Below are positions 3,148-13,614 of a DNA stretch of 64,000 nt, piece after piece. The stretch is from contig NZ_SBKP01000011.1 of the NCBI RefSeq assembly GCF_004122115.1, positions 1 through 64,000 on the forward strand, in the 5' to 3' direction. A program made the translations under genes and the position numbers. The notes beneath the pieces were generated by a model. It made no database searches, had not been told where the DNA came from, and saw nothing but the letters and a program-made list of their open reading frames with translations. This stretch comes from Sphingobium fluviale. GTDB lineage: Bacteria > Pseudomonadota > Alphaproteobacteria > Sphingomonadales > Sphingomonadaceae. The number at the start of each line of letters is the position of its first letter. Within the stretch, counting starts at the first letter, position 1.

Positions 3148-5463
3148 TTAGCCGCCAATTCTTGAAAAATCAGCTACTTTGTGCACTGCAACGCGAACGC
3201 GCTGCAACAGGGCAAGGCGCGCGGCGCGTTTGGCGGGATCGGGATCGTTGACGATGACGCTCTCGAAGAAGGAATCGATGGGCACGCGCAGGGTTGCAAG
3301 CGCGGACATCGCCCCCTCGAAATCCTCCGCCTCGATGGCGGCGGCGGCGCGCGGCTCTGCAGCATCGAGCGCGACGGAGAGGGTGGATTCGGCGGGTTCT
3401 GACAAGTAAGCCGCTTCCGCACCGTCATGCCGGACCTGATCCGGCATCCCGCTACCTTCATCGGTGAATGAGCGGGACCCCGGCTCAAGGCCGGGGTGAC
3501 GGCTGGTGGGGGCGTCATAGCCCTCTTTCTTGAGGATATTGGCCGCGCGCTTGTATCCCGCGAGCAGGTTCGCGCCGTCCGGCGTCTCGACAAAGGCCTG
3601 AAGCGCACGGACGCGGGCGAGCAGGCGGACGAGATCGTCCTCGCCCCCAAGCGCGAACACGGCGTCGATCAGATCATGGCGGACACCCGCTTCCTTTTGC
3701 TGGACCTTGAGGCGGTCTGCGAAGAAGTCCAGGAGTTTGTATGGCTTATGATTCCGTCCCCTCAGTATCTCCTCTGCACGACGTACAGCATTAGTCTTTT
3801 CGACTGCCAATCGCGCAATCAATTTACCATTTTTATATACATTGTAATGGCTTGCATCATCATCAAAAACCACCTCATCACCATCATAAATTTCCAATGG
3901 CTTGAAGTCGTCATTGGAAAAATTTTTCGATTGTGCACTAACTCTAATGACATATGCGGGATCGAATATTTTTAATAATGGCAACCGAATATTATTTTTG
4001 ATCAGCAAAGACAAAACGCCAATTGCAGCCCTTCGCAGTGCAAATGGATCTTTTGATCCTGTTGGTATTTCATCAATACTAAAAAATTCTAATAATGTAT
4101 CCAGCTTATCCGCCAGACTGACCGCCACTGTCACCGGCGCGGTGGGGACATCATCCCCCTGCCCCACAGGCTTGTAATGATCGCGGATCGCATCGGCGAC
4201 TGCATCGGGCAGGCCTTCTGCCCGCGCATAGTATCCGCCCATCAGCCCCTGCAATTCAGGGAACTCGCCAACCATCTCCGTCACCAGATCGGCTTTAACA
4301 AGCCTGCCCGCTTTCTCTGCTTCAGTAATATTTTGCCATTCAATTACACCACCCTCCACCAGCCAGCGCGCCAGCTTGGCCACGCGCTCGACCTTGTCGG
4401 CCACGGTGCCGAGTTTCTCGTGGAAGGTAATGCGCGAGAGCTTCTTCGCGTGATCCGCGAGCTTGGTCTTCTTGTCCTGTTCCCAGAAGAAGCGCGCATC
4501 GGAGAGGCGCGCGGCGAGGACCTTGCCGTTGCCCGCAACAATCGCCGCGCCGCCGTCCTTCGCTTCGATATTCGCGGTGCAGATGAAGGCAGGGGCGAGC
4601 TTGCCGTCCGTGCTCCGCAGCACGAAATATTTCTGGTTGATCCTGAGGGTTAGCTGAATAACCTCAGGAGGCACCTCAAGAAACGCGGGGTCGAAATGCC
4701 CCAGCAGCGGCACTGGCCACTCGGTCAGCCCCGCATTTTCGGCGACCAGCCCGGCGTCCTCGATGAGTTCATAGCCAGCATCGGCGGCCAGCGCCTTCGC
4801 GCGGCTTTCGATGATCGCCTTGCGCTCCTCCTGATCGACGATCACATGGGCTGCGCGCAGCTTTTCGACATAGTCCGCCGCACTGCCGATGGTAATAATG
4901 CCGGGATGATGGAAGCGGTGGCCGACCGTGGCATAGCCGGAGGTGACGCCCTCGACCTCTATCCCCACCAGCTCCTCACCCAGCAGCGCGACGATGCCCT
5001 GAAGCGGGCGCACCCAGCGCAAGCTCTCAGTCGTCTCGCTCGCCGCGCCCCAGCGCATCGACTTGGGCCAGGGGAAGGCGCGAATGATCGCGGGGATGGC
5101 TTGCGCCAGAACGTCGGTGGTCGCTCGACCGGGCTTCTCGACAACCGCGAACCACACGCCATCGCGGTCTTCGAGCTGATCCTTGGTCAGCCCCGTCTTG
5201 CGCAGAAAGCCCTCCAGCGCCTGCTCCGGCGCGGAGGTGCGCGGGCCTTTGAACTCTTCGCTCACCGCCTGCGTCTGAAGCGGGAGGCCATGCGCGATGA
5301 GGGCCAAACGGCGCGGCGTGACGTAGGAAGTGATGCGTTCCGCCTTCAGACCCGCCTGTGCCAGCTGTTCGGTAAACAGCCGCGCGAGATCGTCCGACGC
5401 CTTCGCCTGCATCCGCGCCGGGATTTCCTCACAGCGCAGTTCGAGAAGAAAATCCGCGCTCAT
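3148..5463 (-). CDS. glyS: Glycyl-tRNA synthetase beta subunit, with in-frame insertions
   Basis: GlyS pairs with GlyQ in the alpha2beta2 enzyme that charges tRNA-Gly; the beta subunit supplies tRNA binding. The start is ATG at 5463 ([19 protein letters not shown]), overlapping the glyQ stop as ATGA; an upstream start at 5490 is less likely. Recognisable blocks include [40 protein letters not shown] and [15 protein letters not shown]. At 771 residues it is longer than the E. coli protein (689). Two segments explain much of the excess. One is an 81-bp palindromic repeat read through as [12 protein letters not shown]...[10 protein letters not shown] near residues 654-681. The other is an unusual acidic segment (about residues 460-560) encoded by AT-rich DNA. 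No stop codon or frameshift is seen, so the gene appears intact. Confidence 0.96.
3422..3502. repeat. 81-bp palindromic repeat inserted in frame in glyS
   Basis: The element is bounded by the inverted ends CCGTCA (3422-3427) and TGACGG (3497-3502). It contains three hairpins: ATGCCGGA/TCCGGCAT (3427-3447), CCCGCT/AGCGGG (3448-3476) and CCCCGGC/GCCGGGG (3478-3496). Its length of 81 bases is exactly 27 codons, so glyS stays open. It resembles the dispersed palindromes common between genes in sphingomonads, and the two hairpin half-motifs that flank the GIY-YIG gene near 12.1-12.6 kb. Confidence 0.85.
3735..4100. other. AT-rich patch inside glyS
   Basis: By hand count, 3781-4080 is 109/300 G+C (36%), far below the rest of the gene and window. 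The patch encodes both conserved GlyS sequence ([20 protein letters not shown]) and an unusual acidic stretch (around [18 protein letters not shown]). A smaller AT-rich spot lies near 4300-4350. The base composition suggests recombination with a low-GC donor, which is inference. Confidence 0.7.
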
Positions 5464-9492: not shown

Positions 9493-12045
9493 CTATCCCG
9501 CCTTCTTCGCCGCAGCTTTCTTCGGCGCGGCCTTCTTGGCGGGCGCAGCTTTCTTTTTCGTCGCCGGTTTCTTGCCCTTCTTCGCCGGTGCCGCCGCAGC
9601 GCGCGCATCGATCAGCTGCGCGGCCTCCTCCAGCGTCAGCGCATCCTGCTCGATGCTCTTGGGCAGCGTGGCGTTGGTGGTGCCGTCGGTCACATAAGCG
9701 CCAAAGCGCCCGGCCATCAGCTTGATCTCGGCTTCCGTGCGCGGATGCTTGCCCAGAACTTTGAGCGGCTCGCGCGATGCCCCGCCCGCGCGTGGGCCTT
9801 TGACCGCTGCCTCGGCGAGCTTAACGACGGCAGCGTTCATGCCGGTCTCGAATATCTCGGCGGTGGAAGACAGCCGCGCATATTTGCCGTCATGCAGCAG
9901 ATATGGCCCATAACGCCCCAGATTGGCGACGATCGGCAGGCCGGTCTCCGGGTGGTTGCCCACCTCGCGCGGGAGGCTCAAGAGCTTCACCGCCCAGTCC
10001 AGCGTCAGCTCACCATCGGGCAGATCCTTGGGTATGGAGCCCCGCTTGGCGTCCTTGCCCGATCCCATCTCGACATACGGCCCAAAGCGGCCTGATTTCT
10101 TGACGATGTCCTCGCCCGTCTCCGGGTGCTTGCCCAGAATTTCCGGCCCGCTGTCCGCGCCCTCGCCCGTACCGCCCGGCTGGCCGAACTTGCGGGTGAA
10201 CTTGCATTCGGGATAGTTGGAGCACGCAATGAACGCGCCAAAGCGCCCGCCGCGCAATGACAGGCGCCCTTCGCTGCACAAGGGGCAGGCGCGCGGGTCT
10301 GTGCCGTCGCCCTTGTCGGGGAACAGCATGGGGCTAAGGAATTCATCGAGCGCCGCCGTCACTTCAGACGGCTTCTGCTCCATCACCTCCGCCGTCTTGG
10401 GCTTGAAATCACGCCAGAAGGCATCCAGTACCGCCTGCCACTGCGCCCGCCCGCCGGAAATATCGTCCAGCTCCTCCTCAAGCCCGGCAGTGAAGTCATA
10501 GCTCACATAGCGGTCAAAGAAGCGCTCCAGAAACGCCGTGACCAGCCGCCCGCTTTCCTCTGCGAAGAAGCGGTTCTTCTCGACGCGGACATAGTCCCGG
10601 TCTTTCAGCACCTGAATGGTCGATGCGTAGGTCGATGGCCGCCCAATGCCCAGCTCCTCCAGGCGCTTGACCAGCGACGCCTCGGAATAGCGCGGTGGCG
10701 GTTGGGTGAAATGCTGCTCGGCGCTCACCGCCTTCTTCGCGGGCGCATCGCCAGCATTGAGACGCGGCAGCAGTTTGCTGTCGTCGTCCGCATCGTCATC
10801 CGTGCCTTCCTCATAGAGCGAGAGGAAGCCGGGGAAGATCACCACCTGGCCCGTGGCGCGCAGGCCGTGGCTGCCGGTGCCATCCAGCATCTCGACCGTG
10901 GTGCGCTCCAGCCGGGCAGACGCCATCTGGCTCGCCAACGCCCGCTTGAAGATGAGGTCATAAAGCCGGGCATGATCGCCGCTCCCTGCCTTATCCTTGG
11001 CAAAGTCCGTCGGGCGGATCGCCTCGTGCGCTTCCTGCGCGTTCTTGGCCTTGGTGGTATATTGGCGGGGCTTGTCCGGCAGATATCCACCATCGAATCT
11101 GTCCGCTATCGCCTTGCGCGCAGCGGAAATGGCGCTGCCGTCCATCTGCACGCCGTCGGTCCGCATATAGGTGATCGCGCCGTCCTCATACAGCCCCTGT
11201 GCCACCCGCATCGTATGGCTGGCGGAAAACCCGAGCTTGCGCGCGGCCTCCTGTTGCAGGGTCGAGGTCGTGAACGGCGGCGGCGGATTGCGGGTGAGCG
11301 GCTTGGTCTCGACGCTCTCGACCGTGAAGCGCCCGGCCTCGACATCGGCCTTGGCGGCGAGCGCATCGCCTTCCTTGCCGATGGTCAATCGCTCGATCTT
11401 CTCGCCGCGCCACTTGACCAGCCGCGCGGTAAAGGTCCGCCCATCCTGCTCCATCTCGGCGGCGACGGACCAGTATTCCTGCGGCGTAAACGCCTCTATC
11501 TCGCGCTCGCGTTCCACAATCAGCCTAAGCGCGACCGACTGCACCCGGCCAGCAGACTTCGCGCCCGGCAGCTTGCGCCACAGCACCGGCGAGAGCGTGA
11601 AGCCGACAAGATAATCGAGCGCCCGCCGCGCACGATAGGCATCGATCAGGTCATGATCGAGATCGCGCGGGGCAGCCATCGCCTCGGTCACGGCCTGTTT
11701 GGTGATGGCATTGAAGGTCACGCGCACCACATCCTTGGGCGCCGCCTTCTTGGCTTTGAGCACCTCCAGCACATGCCAGCTTATCGCCTCCCCTTCCCGA
11801 TCAGGGTCGGTCGCGAGGATAACGCGGCTCGATTGCTTGGCGGCATCGGTGATGGCTTTGAGCTGGCGGCCCTTGTCGCCATAATTTTCCCATTGCATCG
11901 CAAAGCCGTCATCAGGATCGACCGATCCATCCTTGGGCGGCAAATCCCGCACATGGCCGTAAGACGCGAGGACATGATAATCCCCGCCCAGATATTTCTC
12001 GATGGTCTTGGCCTTGGCGGGAGATTCGACGATGACAAGCTGCAT
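9493..12045 (-). CDS. topA: DNA topoisomerase I
   Basis: This 850-residue type IA topoisomerase relaxes negative supercoils. The Toprim domain opens MQLVIVESPAKAKTIEKYLG and has ATDPDREGEAISWH. SAGRVQSVALRLIVERE and the active-site Tyr in AITYMRTDGVQMDG are intact. At least one four-Cys zinc ribbon (ACPLCSEGRL...ACSNYPECKF) follows, then repeats of GRFGAY/GRYGPY type. The tail is a Lys/Ala-rich histone-like extension (KKAAPAKKAAPKKAAAKK), common in alphaproteobacterial TopA. ATG 12045 is the family start; a longer reading to 12435 runs through non-coding DNA. It lies downstream of dprA, now separated from it by a 460-bp inserted block. Confidence 0.96.
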   Translation of the reverse strand: MQLVIVESPAKAKTIEKYLGGDYHVLASYGHVRDLPPKDGSVDPDDGFAMQWENYGDKGRQLKAITDAAKQSSRVILATDPDREGEAISWHVLEVLKAKKAAPKDVVRVTFNAITKQAVTEAMAAPRDLDHDLIDAYRARRALDYLVGFTLSPVLWRKLPGAKSAGRVQSVALRLIVEREREIEAFTPQEYWSVAAEMEQDGRTFTARLVKWRGEKIERLTIGKEGDALAAKADVEAGRFTVESVETKPLTRNPPPPFTTSTLQQEAARKLGFSASHTMRVAQGLYEDGAITYMRTDGVQMDGSAISAARKAIADRFDGGYLPDKPRQYTTKAKNAQEAHEAIRPTDFAKDKAGSGDHARLYDLIFKRALASQMASARLERTTVEMLDGTGSHGLRATGQVVIFPGFLSLYEEGTDDDADDDSKLLPRLNAGDAPAKKAVSAEQHFTQPPPRYSEASLVKRLEELGIGRPSTYASTIQVLKDRDYVRVEKNRFFAEESGRLVTAFLERFFDRYVSYDFTAGLEEELDDISGGRAQWQAVLDAFWRDFKPKTAEVMEQKPSEVTAALDEFLSPMLFPDKGDGTDPRACPLCSEGRLSLRGGRFGAFIACSNYPECKFTRKFGQPGGTGEGADSGPEILGKHPETGEDIVKKSGRFGPYVEMGSGKDAKRGSIPKDLPDGELTLDWAVKLLSLPREVGNHPETGLPIVANLGRYGPYLLHDGKYARLSSTAEIFETGMNAAVVKLAEAAVKGPRAGGASREPLKVLGKHPRTEAEIKLMAGRFGAYVTDGTTNATLPKSIEQDALTLEEAAQLIDARAAAAPAKKGKKPATKKKAAPAKKAAPKKAAAKKAG

Positions 12046-12100: not shown

Positions 12101-12120
12101 GCCGTCAAGCGATAAGCGAG
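12101..12120. repeat. 20-bp direct repeat, left copy
   Basis: GCCGTCAAGCGATAAGCGAG at 12101-12120 is identical to 12561-12580, exactly 460 bases away. The right copy contains the dprA stop codon, so the sequence is native to the dprA 3' end and the left copy is a duplicate. Confidence 0.9.
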
Positions 12121-12137
12121 GGCCACCCCGATCCGTC

Positions 12138-12159
12138 TGCCAGCGCAGGCTGGCATCTC
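12138..12159. repeat. Palindromic repeat left of the GIY-YIG gene
   Basis: TGCCAGC (12138-12144), loop GCAG, GCTGGCA (12149-12155), then TCTC. The identical 22 bases occur at 12537-12558. The half-motif TGCC...GGCATC also occurs in the element inside glyS. Confidence 0.85.
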
Positions 12160-12186
12160 GTGCGGCGATGTGCCAAACTCTGATGC

Positions 12187-12474
12187 ATGCGCGGCGGATG
12201 GACCTACATCATGACCAACAAACCGTGCGGCGTTCTTTATGTCGGCGTTACGAGCCGCCTGCATGCGCGGATCGAACAGCACAAGCGAGGCAAGGGATCG
12301 GAATTTTGCCGCCGCTATAACCTGCACACCCTTGTGCTGGCCGAGCGACATGAACGCATCGAAGATGCCATCGCGCGGGAAAAGGCAATGAAGGCGTGGA
12401 AGCGGGAATGGAAAATCCGCCTCATCGAGGAGCAAAACCCTGAATGGCGAGATTTGTTCTCATTGTTGGCGTAA
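12187..12474 (+). CDS. GIY-YIG family nuclease
   Basis: A 95-residue single-domain GIY-YIG protein (UPF0213/UvrC-N-like). GWTYIMTNKPCGVLYVGVTS holds the two signature strands, with TYI for GIY and YVG for YIG spaced as in the family. The conserved Arg follows in RLHARIEQHKRG, and the Glu in IAREKAMKAWKREWK. All residues expected for a magnesium-dependent nuclease appear present. Standalone copies of this small gene are multicopy in many alphaproteobacteria, and their role is not established. Here it is bracketed by palindromic repeats and a 20-bp direct repeat. No clear Shine-Dalgarno is seen; ATG 12187 gives the family start MRGGWTYIM. Confidence 0.85.
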   Translation: MRGGWTYIMTNKPCGVLYVGVTSRLHARIEQHKRGKGSEFCRRYNLHTLVLAERHERIEDAIAREKAMKAWKREWKIRLIEEQNPEWRDLFSLLA

Positions 12475-12484
12475 AACTCTGAGA

Positions 12485-12502
12485 CCCCAGCCTTCGCTGG
12501 GG
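12485..12502. repeat. Hairpin right of the GIY-YIG gene
   Basis: CCCCAGC-CTTC-GCTGGGG followed by TGACGG. It matches the second half of the glyS element (CCCCGGC/GCCGGGG followed by TGACGG). It could also terminate the nuclease transcript, being 10 bases past its stop. Confidence 0.75.
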
Positions 12503-12536
12503 TGACGGGAAGGATCCACCCAACATTTCATCGTCA

Positions 12537-12558
12537 TGCCAGCGCAGGCTGGCATCTC
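12537..12558. repeat. Palindromic repeat, second copy
   Basis: Exact copy of 12138-12159, here preceded by CGTCA, which restores the CGTCATGCC start seen in the glyS element. It lies just inside the right 20-bp direct repeat. Confidence 0.85.
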
Positions 12559-12560
12559 AT

Positions 12561-12580
12561 GCCGTCAAGCGATAAGCGAG
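12561..12580. repeat. 20-bp direct repeat, right copy (dprA end)
   Basis: Identical to 12101-12120. Bases 12565-12567 are the dprA stop codon (reverse strand TGA), showing that this copy is the functional, ancestral one. Confidence 0.9.
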
Positions 12581-13614
12581 ACTTTGCCGCCCGCGTGCCG
12601 CTCCAGCCTGCCCGCCAGCTCCAGCTCCAGCAGCGCCATCTGCACGGCGGTGGAGGGCTGGCCGGACTGGCGGATCAGCTCATCAAGCGGCACCGGAACT
12701 GGTCCCAGCAGCGCGATGATGTCTGCCGGGTCAACCGCTTCGGCAGCGGGCTTTTCCCCTGCAAAAAGCGAGAGCTGCGGCGCGCGTGGTCCTGCGCGGG
12801 GATCGAGGTTGCTCAGCGCCTCCATCACATCGGCGGCGGACTGGATCAGCGTCGCGCCCTCGCGGATCAGCAGGTTGCACCCCTGCGCGCGAGGATCGAG
12901 CGGAGAGCCGGGCACGGCCAGCACCTCGCGCCCATATTCGCCCGCCAGACGCGCGGTGATGAGCGAGCCGGATTTCGGCGCCGCCTCTACCACGATCGTC
13001 GCGCGAGAGAGGCCCGCGATCACGCGGTTGCGATGCGGGAAATAGCGCGCCTTCGGCTCTGTGCCGGGCGGCTGCTCGGCGATCAGCAGCGCAGCCTCGG
13101 CAATCTGCTCCTGCAGGTCAGCGTTTTCGGGCGGATAGTGGCTGTCGATCCCGCCCGCGATCACCGCGACGGTGCGTTCCTCCGCCCCATGATGCGCGGC
13201 GGTGTCTATCCCGCGCGCGAGGCCGGAGACGATCACCAGCCCCTCTCCCGCCAGCTCCCGCGCCAGCCCCCGCGCAAAGCGGCAGGCAGCGGCAGAGGCA
13301 TTGCGCGCGCCCACCATCGCGACGCATGGGCCGTTCGCCAATGCTATGTTTCCGCGATAGGTCAACACCGGCGGCGCGTCTTCCGTCTCGGCGAGCAGCG
13401 CGGGATAATCCGCATCGCCCCAGACAAGCCATCGCGCACCCAGCCGCTCTGCCGCCTCTATCTCAGCGGCAATAGCGCGTTCGTCCGCCCGTTCGCGCAG
13501 CGCCCGCAGCGCCTCGCTGGCGTTACCGAACCGCCCGATCAAATGCCGATAGCTGACAGGCCCGATGCGGGGCGAGCGCGCCAGCCGGATCGCATCGAAC
13601 CGCGCCTGATCCAT
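12565..13614 (-). CDS. dprA: DNA-processing protein DprA
   Basis: DprA loads RecA onto incoming single-stranded DNA during transformation; many non-competent bacteria also keep it. The 349-residue protein has an N-terminal SAM-like helical region, then a Rossmann-like DNA-binding fold (WGDADYPALLAETEDAPPVLTYRGN, VGARNASAAA, VSGLARGIDTAAHHGA, FPHRNRVIAGLSRATIVVEA). It ends in a winged-helix domain (IALLGPVPVPLDELIRQSGQ). Start is ATG 13614. The plsY stop lies 7 bases upstream, so plsY-dprA form an operon that probably once ran into topA. The final seven codons lie in the 20-bp repeat duplicated on the far side of the GIY-YIG block. Confidence 0.95.
   Translation of the reverse strand: MDQARFDAIRLARSPRIGPVSYRHLIGRFGNASEALRALRERADERAIAAEIEAAERLGARWLVWGDADYPALLAETEDAPPVLTYRGNIALANGPCVAMVGARNASAAACRFARGLARELAGEGLVIVSGLARGIDTAAHHGAEERTVAVIAGGIDSHYPPENADLQEQIAEAALLIAEQPPGTEPKARYFPHRNRVIAGLSRATIVVEAAPKSGSLITARLAGEYGREVLAVPGSPLDPRAQGCNLLIREGATLIQSAADVMEALSNLDPRAGPRAPQLSLFAGEKPAAEAVDPADIIALLGPVPVPLDELIRQSGQPSTAVQMALLELELAGRLERHAGGKVSLIA

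Follow-up and report, generated by a model that had tools for sequence, protein, structure and literature searches.

Between dprA and topA, the genome of Sphingobium fluviale carries a gene for a small GIY-YIG nuclease together with several hairpins, and this block is bounded by two copies of a 20-bp sequence. The arrangement raises the question of whether a single nuclease gene and the palindromes beside it can form a mobile unit that has no transposase. We addressed this question in the window, that is, the whole stretch of 64,000 nucleotides that was analysed, and in related genomes and records from other phyla. Our reading, to which we assign a probability of roughly 60%, is that the block is a small mobile unit in which a stand-alone GIY-YIG nuclease gene is packaged with its cognate CGTC-tagged REPs. 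Its movement would, as we infer, be driven by the nuclease itself.

One nuclease gene and three hairpins between copies of a 20-bp sequence

The sequence GCCGTCAAGCGATAAGCGAG is present at 12101-12120 and at 12561-12580, and the two copies are identical at 20/20 positions. When up to 3 mismatches were allowed, these were the 2 matches in the window; in 100 shuffles the mean was 0.01 and none reached 2. The sequence-only reading had described an exact duplication with the dprA stop codon in its second copy, and this is confirmed. The dprA-side copy forms the 3' end of the flanking host gene dprA (12565-13614, minus strand), with its last codons and stop, and a conserved TTGACG, which lies upstream of the other flanking host gene, topA (9493-12045, minus strand; start taken at MQLVIVESPAKAKTI), is contained in the topA-side copy. 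TTGACG was found upstream of topA in 16/16 loci with a topA start found (30 loci, one strand read), and it overlaps the dprA stop in the window and in two related genomes, G059 and G041. Because of this overlap, the 20-bp duplication leaves both the dprA stop and TTGACG intact. TTGACG is a putative -35 box of a topA promoter; a consensus promoter scan did not call it.

The 440 bp between the two copies (12121-12560) contain one credible gene and three hairpins, as would be expected from the earlier view that only a GIY-YIG gene, palindromes and a further hairpin lie there. The gene (12187-12474, plus strand) encodes a protein of 95 aa, whose residues 4-76 match PF01541 (GIY-YIG) with an E value of 9.3e-12 and 45.5 bits against a cut-off of 22.6. 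Residues Y7, Y18, R28, H32, E65 and N84 are invariant in an alignment of 15 sequences, and the catalytic residues are kept. For GIY-YIG gene pairs, dN/dS was at most 0.27 in 14/18 and 0.31-0.70 in the other 4, which points to purifying selection on the gene in most of the 18 pairs. No transposase ORF was found between the 20-mer copies, where the GIY-YIG gene is the sole credible ORF, and a repeat search of the window found no inverted pair of at least 12 bp at the segment ends, 12121 and 12560. The description of the block as a single-gene unit lacking a transposase is thus supported. A classical insertion sequence, in contrast, has both a transposase and terminal inverted repeats.

Several other identities were considered for the locus and rejected. 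The group I intron model scored 17.6, far under its cut-off of 56.05, which speaks against an intron with a homing endonuclease. For a phage origin, there was no PHROG match, and a phage collection gave only two Staphylococcus records at 37.6% identity. A structured RNA was rejected after Rfam gave no match to an E value of 0.1.

The hairpins are CGTC-tagged REPs, which were defined by Di Nocera, De Gregorio and Rocco in 2013 by a CGTC tag, an 8-bp stem, a 4-base loop and inverted pairs (PMC3733652). REP 1 (12134-12155, plus strand) has its tag outward and its tail toward the gene, and REP 2 (12484-12507, minus strand) is inverted, also with its tail toward the gene. REP 3 (12532-12555, plus strand) repeats REP 1 almost exactly and in the same direction, the two lying within a direct repeat of 25/26. 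A search of the window for the REP 3 palindrome pattern, with as many as 3 mismatches tolerated, matched REP 1 and REP 3 only (0.05 expected), and as single-stranded DNA, REPs 1, 2 and 3 folded better than most of 200 shuffles (z of -2.75, -3.05 and -2.44). Their tag stands beside an 8-9 bp stem with a 4-5 base loop, save that the REP 1 stem has 7 bp, one base fewer beside the tag. As far as the available part of the 2013 paper describes CGTC REPs, the likeness covers tag, stem, loop and inverted pairs, and the tail differs: it is TCTC(A) in the window, whereas most, although not all, tails in that paper fit CCA (PMC3733652). CCA(G) is common among 75 loci from named records (from the best 80 of 582 confirmed stretches). 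The tagged-hairpin finder was loose, and 5 of the 10 hairpins that it called in the window do not have the look of REPs. At 3423-3500 of the window, two CGTC-tagged hairpins that belong to a different REP type form an inverted pair, with no GIY-YIG match listed nearby. The REP core occurs in 6 copies in its own genome, 3 of them at the GIY-YIG locus, and the extended form ranges from 0 to 81 copies across 94 genomes of the genus.

Empty sites and the history of the dprA-topA spacer

The inserted segment is absent from G059 and G041, in which the dprA-topA spacer is short and holds the 20-mer once (20/20 in G059 and 18/20 in G041). When one copy of the 20-mer is kept, the window can be aligned across the junction without gaps, for 199 bp with G059 (94%) and for 186 bp with G041 (86%). 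From the single copy in these empty sites and the gap-free alignment of the joined flanks, 12121-12560 appears to have been inserted, with 20 bp of the target duplicated. A 440-bp insertion plus a 20-bp duplication would account for the comparison with both genomes in one step. The sequence-only reading had proposed an insertion with target-site duplication and had looked to relatives for empty sites with one 20-mer; such sites exist in G059 and G041, and they support the proposal.

A related unit was also found in this spacer in other species, in the same orientation in G083 and in the opposite orientation in G020, G025 and G081; in G009 the match is limited to the topA side. A tree of topA gave (G083,(G059,(G000,G041))), where G000 is the window genome. 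Because G083 lies outside the window genome, G059 and G041 on this tree, the unit must have been gained twice, or gained once and lost twice. The second possibility corresponds to a history in which the unit entered the spacer before G083 split off and was later removed from G059 and from G041, in each case through recombination of the 20-bp repeats with each other, so that the present repeat is ancient. This history draws on the topA tree and on the related unit of G083, which has the same place and orientation and a remnant, CGCTTAACGCTTGACGCC, on the topA side; moreover, a common clade of the G000 and G083 GIY-YIG genes was not rejected (p-AU of 0.36, with short genes). However, it requires two precise losses and a 20/20 identity kept throughout, and the synonymous divergence between G000 and G083 is 1.49 for the GIY-YIG gene (91 codons, near saturation) as compared to 0.69 for topA and 0.72 for dprA (82 codons). 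We consider so old a residence rather unlikely.

REPs accompany GIY-YIG genes in the genus and in other phyla

Relatives of the GIY-YIG gene were found in 86/94 genomes of the genus, with up to 12 matches each among the matches listed. We counted REPs in 150-bp bins on either side of these genes in samples composed of the best-scoring matches to a query rather than of random ones. In the genus, 70/76 matches were scored, and in a sample across the phylum 28/30, the rest being too near a contig end; one frameshifted gene, L111, was counted twice. The two adjacent bins held 1.19 and 1.13 REPs per copy in the genus, and inverted REPs with their tags outward stood on both sides in 63/70 copies. 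In the phylum sample, the values were 0.82 and 0.93, with tag-out REPs on both sides in 14/28 copies. Other subfamilies of the genus gave 0.90 and 0.47 in 40 copies, 25 of which had tag-out REPs on both sides. Bins at least 300 bp out held 0-0.12 REPs, save one bin covered by 3 loci only; the outer bins are mostly coding, so this background is not purely intergenic. As a small control, the flanks of dprA in 29 loci held a REP in 1/58 bins.

Similar results were obtained with named records from many phyla, for which 75/81 matches were scored in the best 80 of 582 confirmed stretches, of which many came from metagenome-assembled genomes. In these 75 copies, the adjacent bins held 1.08 and 1.21 REPs, at least one adjacent REP was present in 72, and tag-out REPs stood on both sides in 35; REP density beside the gene was approximately 25 times that at 300 bp or more. 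Among the same best 80 of 582 stretches, a REP on at least one side was found in records named Planctomycetota, Nitrospirales, Chloroflexi, Elusimicrobiaceae, Ignavibacteria, Bipolaricaulota, Myxococcota and deltaproteobacteria, as well as alpha-, beta- and gammaproteobacteria. A Planktothrix copy of the nuclease had no CGTC REPs beside the gene. No REP was recognised at 15/110 genus copies, and 14 of these form one clade (L250, L252, L257, L265, L267 and others), which may have been domesticated.

Long direct repeats, on the other hand, were rare. An exact outer repeat of at least 16 bp was found at 4/150 GIY-YIG copies with REPs on both sides, and 3 of these 4 repeats hold REP sequence, as judged by eye, whereas that of the window does not. 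Short or decayed duplications around the 150 copies were indistinguishable from chance. The expectation that other copies of the gene would be flanked by both the palindromes and a direct repeat thus stood for the palindromes, as seen in the REP peak beside the genes, and failed for the direct repeat: among the 150 copies, a non-REP repeat of at least 16 bp was found only at the window. A 20-bp target duplication as a general rule is not borne out in this set. Because long duplications do not recur elsewhere, the usual route of insertion may differ from a wide staggered break.

REP stem type follows the nuclease clade

The clades formed by the genus copies carry CCAGC, CCGG, GCTGAA, CCCGC or CCTGC stems, except for one that has none. 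On the nuclease tree, the stem labels require 7 changes, where the minimum is 5 and the mean for shuffled labels is 50.3 (0/200 shuffles were as low). In the 19 genomes with mixed labels, 56/57 copies had the label of their nearest relative in another genome; shuffling labels within genomes gave a mean of 17.8 and a maximum of 36, and 0/2000 shuffles reached the observed value. With REP-less copies left out, the match was 37/38 in 14 genomes (shuffles: mean of 14.1 and maximum of 29). The window genome itself provides an example, in which the window copy has CCAGC REPs and the copy on contig 4 has CCCGGG REPs. By these comparisons, REP stem type follows the nuclease clade, also within one genome. 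Together with the adjacent REP peaks, the clade-specific stems support the earlier suggestion that the palindromes are tied to the nuclease.

The number of REPs elsewhere in the genome points the same way for one type. CCAGC REPs beyond two per gene had a median of 19.5 in the 42 genomes with a clade-I gene (a list compiled by hand from matches listed down to an E value of about 5e-22) and of 5.0 in the 52 genomes without one, and all 18 of the 94 genomes with zero REPs lacked a clade-I gene; kinship among the genomes is ignored in both comparisons. CCAGC REPs were nevertheless present in 34/52 genomes without the gene, with up to 42 copies. The window genome also contains 18 REPs of the GCTGAA type, on contigs C2 to C45, and both of its small GIY-YIG genes are of other types. 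These REPs may be relics, or they may have been mobilised in trans.

In one subclade (L150 and L152-L156 as compared to L074, L088, L102 and L107), the GIY-YIG unit is nested in larger units that have inverted ends, GGGTGGNNAGCGGACNGTC. The interior of such units differs between species at the same site and consists mostly of a single ORF for which no Pfam match exceeds the cut-off. They are possibly a cassette system with exchangeable cargo. Units of this kind, with other DNA in the same place in other species, would suit an account in which the nuclease is a passenger, carried as cargo while another transposase acting in trans moves the DNA. Against this, the GGGTGGNNAGCGGACNGTC ends have no match in the window's own genome at up to 1 mismatch (a reversed control pattern gave one per strand), and the clade-specific matching of REPs holds across subfamilies. 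We regard a passenger role as improbable.

Probable gain, loss and exchange of units at fixed sites

At the 3' site of polA, the orientation of the unit in G030 is opposite to that in G016 or G050, and the breakpoints coincide with the REPs. Identity is 96-98% in the flanks and 89-91% in the GIY-YIG genes, with a dS of 0.46 between G030 and G016. Simple flipping was rejected, since the genes differ by 9-11% and the flanks by 2-4%, and an exchange of copies fits better. Judging from these identities, one copy was probably exchanged for another, with turnover of the unit at a fixed site. Tandem copies were also found: G059 contains three GIY-YIG-REP units, 467 bp apart (L112, C1:658000-663000). 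In G032, the left flanks of two GIY-YIG copies (L094 and L106) are identical over at least 770 bp, whereas the right flanks do not match in this way, which suggests duplication or rearrangement through the unit.

Presence and absence of the unit were seen at further sites. At the fnrL site of Sphingobium, the match extends over the full stretch in seven records, and the gene is missing from four close ones; the alignment took in 3 of the seven full-length records and the 4 next ones. Two of the four gene-less records (L312 and L313; TomTYG74 and TomTYG64) hold one hybrid REP, tagged with CGTC at either end, in place of the entire unit that relatives have there; it is possibly an excision scar, a target or a slippage product. 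Between sufB and sufC, which belong to the iron-sulfur cluster genes, the unit is present in A. lipoferum AZO_p3 (L305) and absent from three relatives at 94.7-96.5% identity, where the adjoining bases differ too. Another site holds the unit in G018 and G050 and a short unrelated repeat in G030. At some sites, then, presence or absence is accompanied by replaced flanking DNA and not by a clean junction.

REPs without a gene were arranged in the same manner as those beside genes. In 150 listed places in 11 genomes, 35/35 close pairs of gene-less REPs were tag-out. CCAGC REPs with two tags were found at 38 sites in 25/94 genomes, as compared to 1 double-tail site in 1 genome. This excess fits a collapse of tag-out pairs, and host slippage explains it equally well.

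These observations bear on whether the nuclease moves anything at all. It could be a housekeeping enzyme of DNA repair or DNA uptake, the adjacent REPs serving as binding or regulatory sites. In favour of such roles, the Ssn nuclease of Neisseria is said to modulate natural transformation through its own repeat. In the available part of a study of Caulobacter, COG2827 genes are treated as candidates for DNA repair, and one of them has an SOS box (PMC1839093). However, a housekeeping role sits poorly with the patchy, multi-copy distribution in the genus, and with presence and absence among close strains, opposite orientations at one site and tandem copies. We give it little credence as compared to a mobile unit of nuclease gene and cognate REPs.

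A possible mechanism

In the mechanism that we propose, the nuclease would recognise its own REP as a single-strand hairpin and cut it. Host repair or recombination would then copy, replace, collapse or lose the unit, and REP pairs without a gene would be carried in trans. At dprA-topA, a staggered target break approximately 20 bp wide would have been filled in to give the duplication, with the dprA end and the sequence upstream of topA left intact. The usual route might be another one, for example recombination through REPs already at the site.

The same scheme may extend much further, although we put it forward only tentatively. Stand-alone GIY-YIG nucleases could be dedicated mobilisers of CGTC REPs across bacteria, in the manner of REPtrons, with a hydrolytic nuclease instead of a transposase cutting its own hairpin and host repair joining the ends. 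Such nucleases would spread themselves as one-gene units and gene-less pairs in trans, and units at one site would be replaced in either orientation.

Comparison with known systems

CGTC REPs were found in all alphaproteobacterial orders surveyed in 2013 and in other phyla; they are described as not associated with transposase genes and apparently without a dedicated transposase, and what moves them was left open in the available part of the paper (PMC3733652). Head-to-head dimers were the commonest arrangement, where "head" may differ from the definition used here (PMC3733652). N. aromaticivorans, A. lipoferum, S. meliloti and Neisseria are named among the carriers (PMC3733652). We found the nuclease with CGTC REPs on both sides in N. 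aromaticivorans, A. lipoferum, S. meliloti and N. gonorrhoeae. Because related genes lie beside their own matching hairpins in many bacteria, the GIY-YIG nuclease is, on this genomic evidence, a candidate for the missing enzyme behind the widespread CGTC REPs. The words GIY-YIG and COG2827 are absent from the available part of the 2013 paper (PMC3733652). Among the open-licence papers listed by the searches, no title or abstract linked GIY-YIG or COG2827 genes to REPs; a GIY-YIG match in that literature, a Moraxella study, merely lists both genes in its available part.

GIY-YIG homing endonucleases resemble the protein described here in their catalytic domain and in their presence or absence at conserved sites. 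They differ in that no intron or intein was seen here, and in that this protein has only 95 aa, mostly catalytic domain.

The N. gonorrhoeae homolog, probably Ssn, is 48% identical and sits among CGTCATTCCCGC repeats. Ssn proteins, according to a 2025 paper in Nature Communications, are reportedly site-specific single-strand GIY-YIG nucleases that cut single-stranded DNA at a cognate repeat, and thousands of homologs are said to exist, every one paired with a repeat of its own. The GIY-YIG superfamily and the pairing of enzyme and repeat would thus be shared with the window unit. If that work covers the pairing of enzyme and repeat, the pairing is already known, and what is added here is the evidence for a mobile unit.

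The RAYT REPtrons and REPINs, which are based on GTAG REPs, share with the window unit a single gene with cognate REPs, scattered gene-less pairs and co-variation of repeat and enzyme (in part from the available text of PMC3733652). The RAYT REPtron combines a HUH tyrosine transposase with a GTAG tag, whereas the window unit combines a GIY-YIG nuclease with a CGTC tag. With the pairing described here, there is a gene whose role can be tested, a substrate for every clade, and naturally empty sites as well as exchanged units that can be assayed; it also offers a transposase-free REP system for comparison with the RAYTs.
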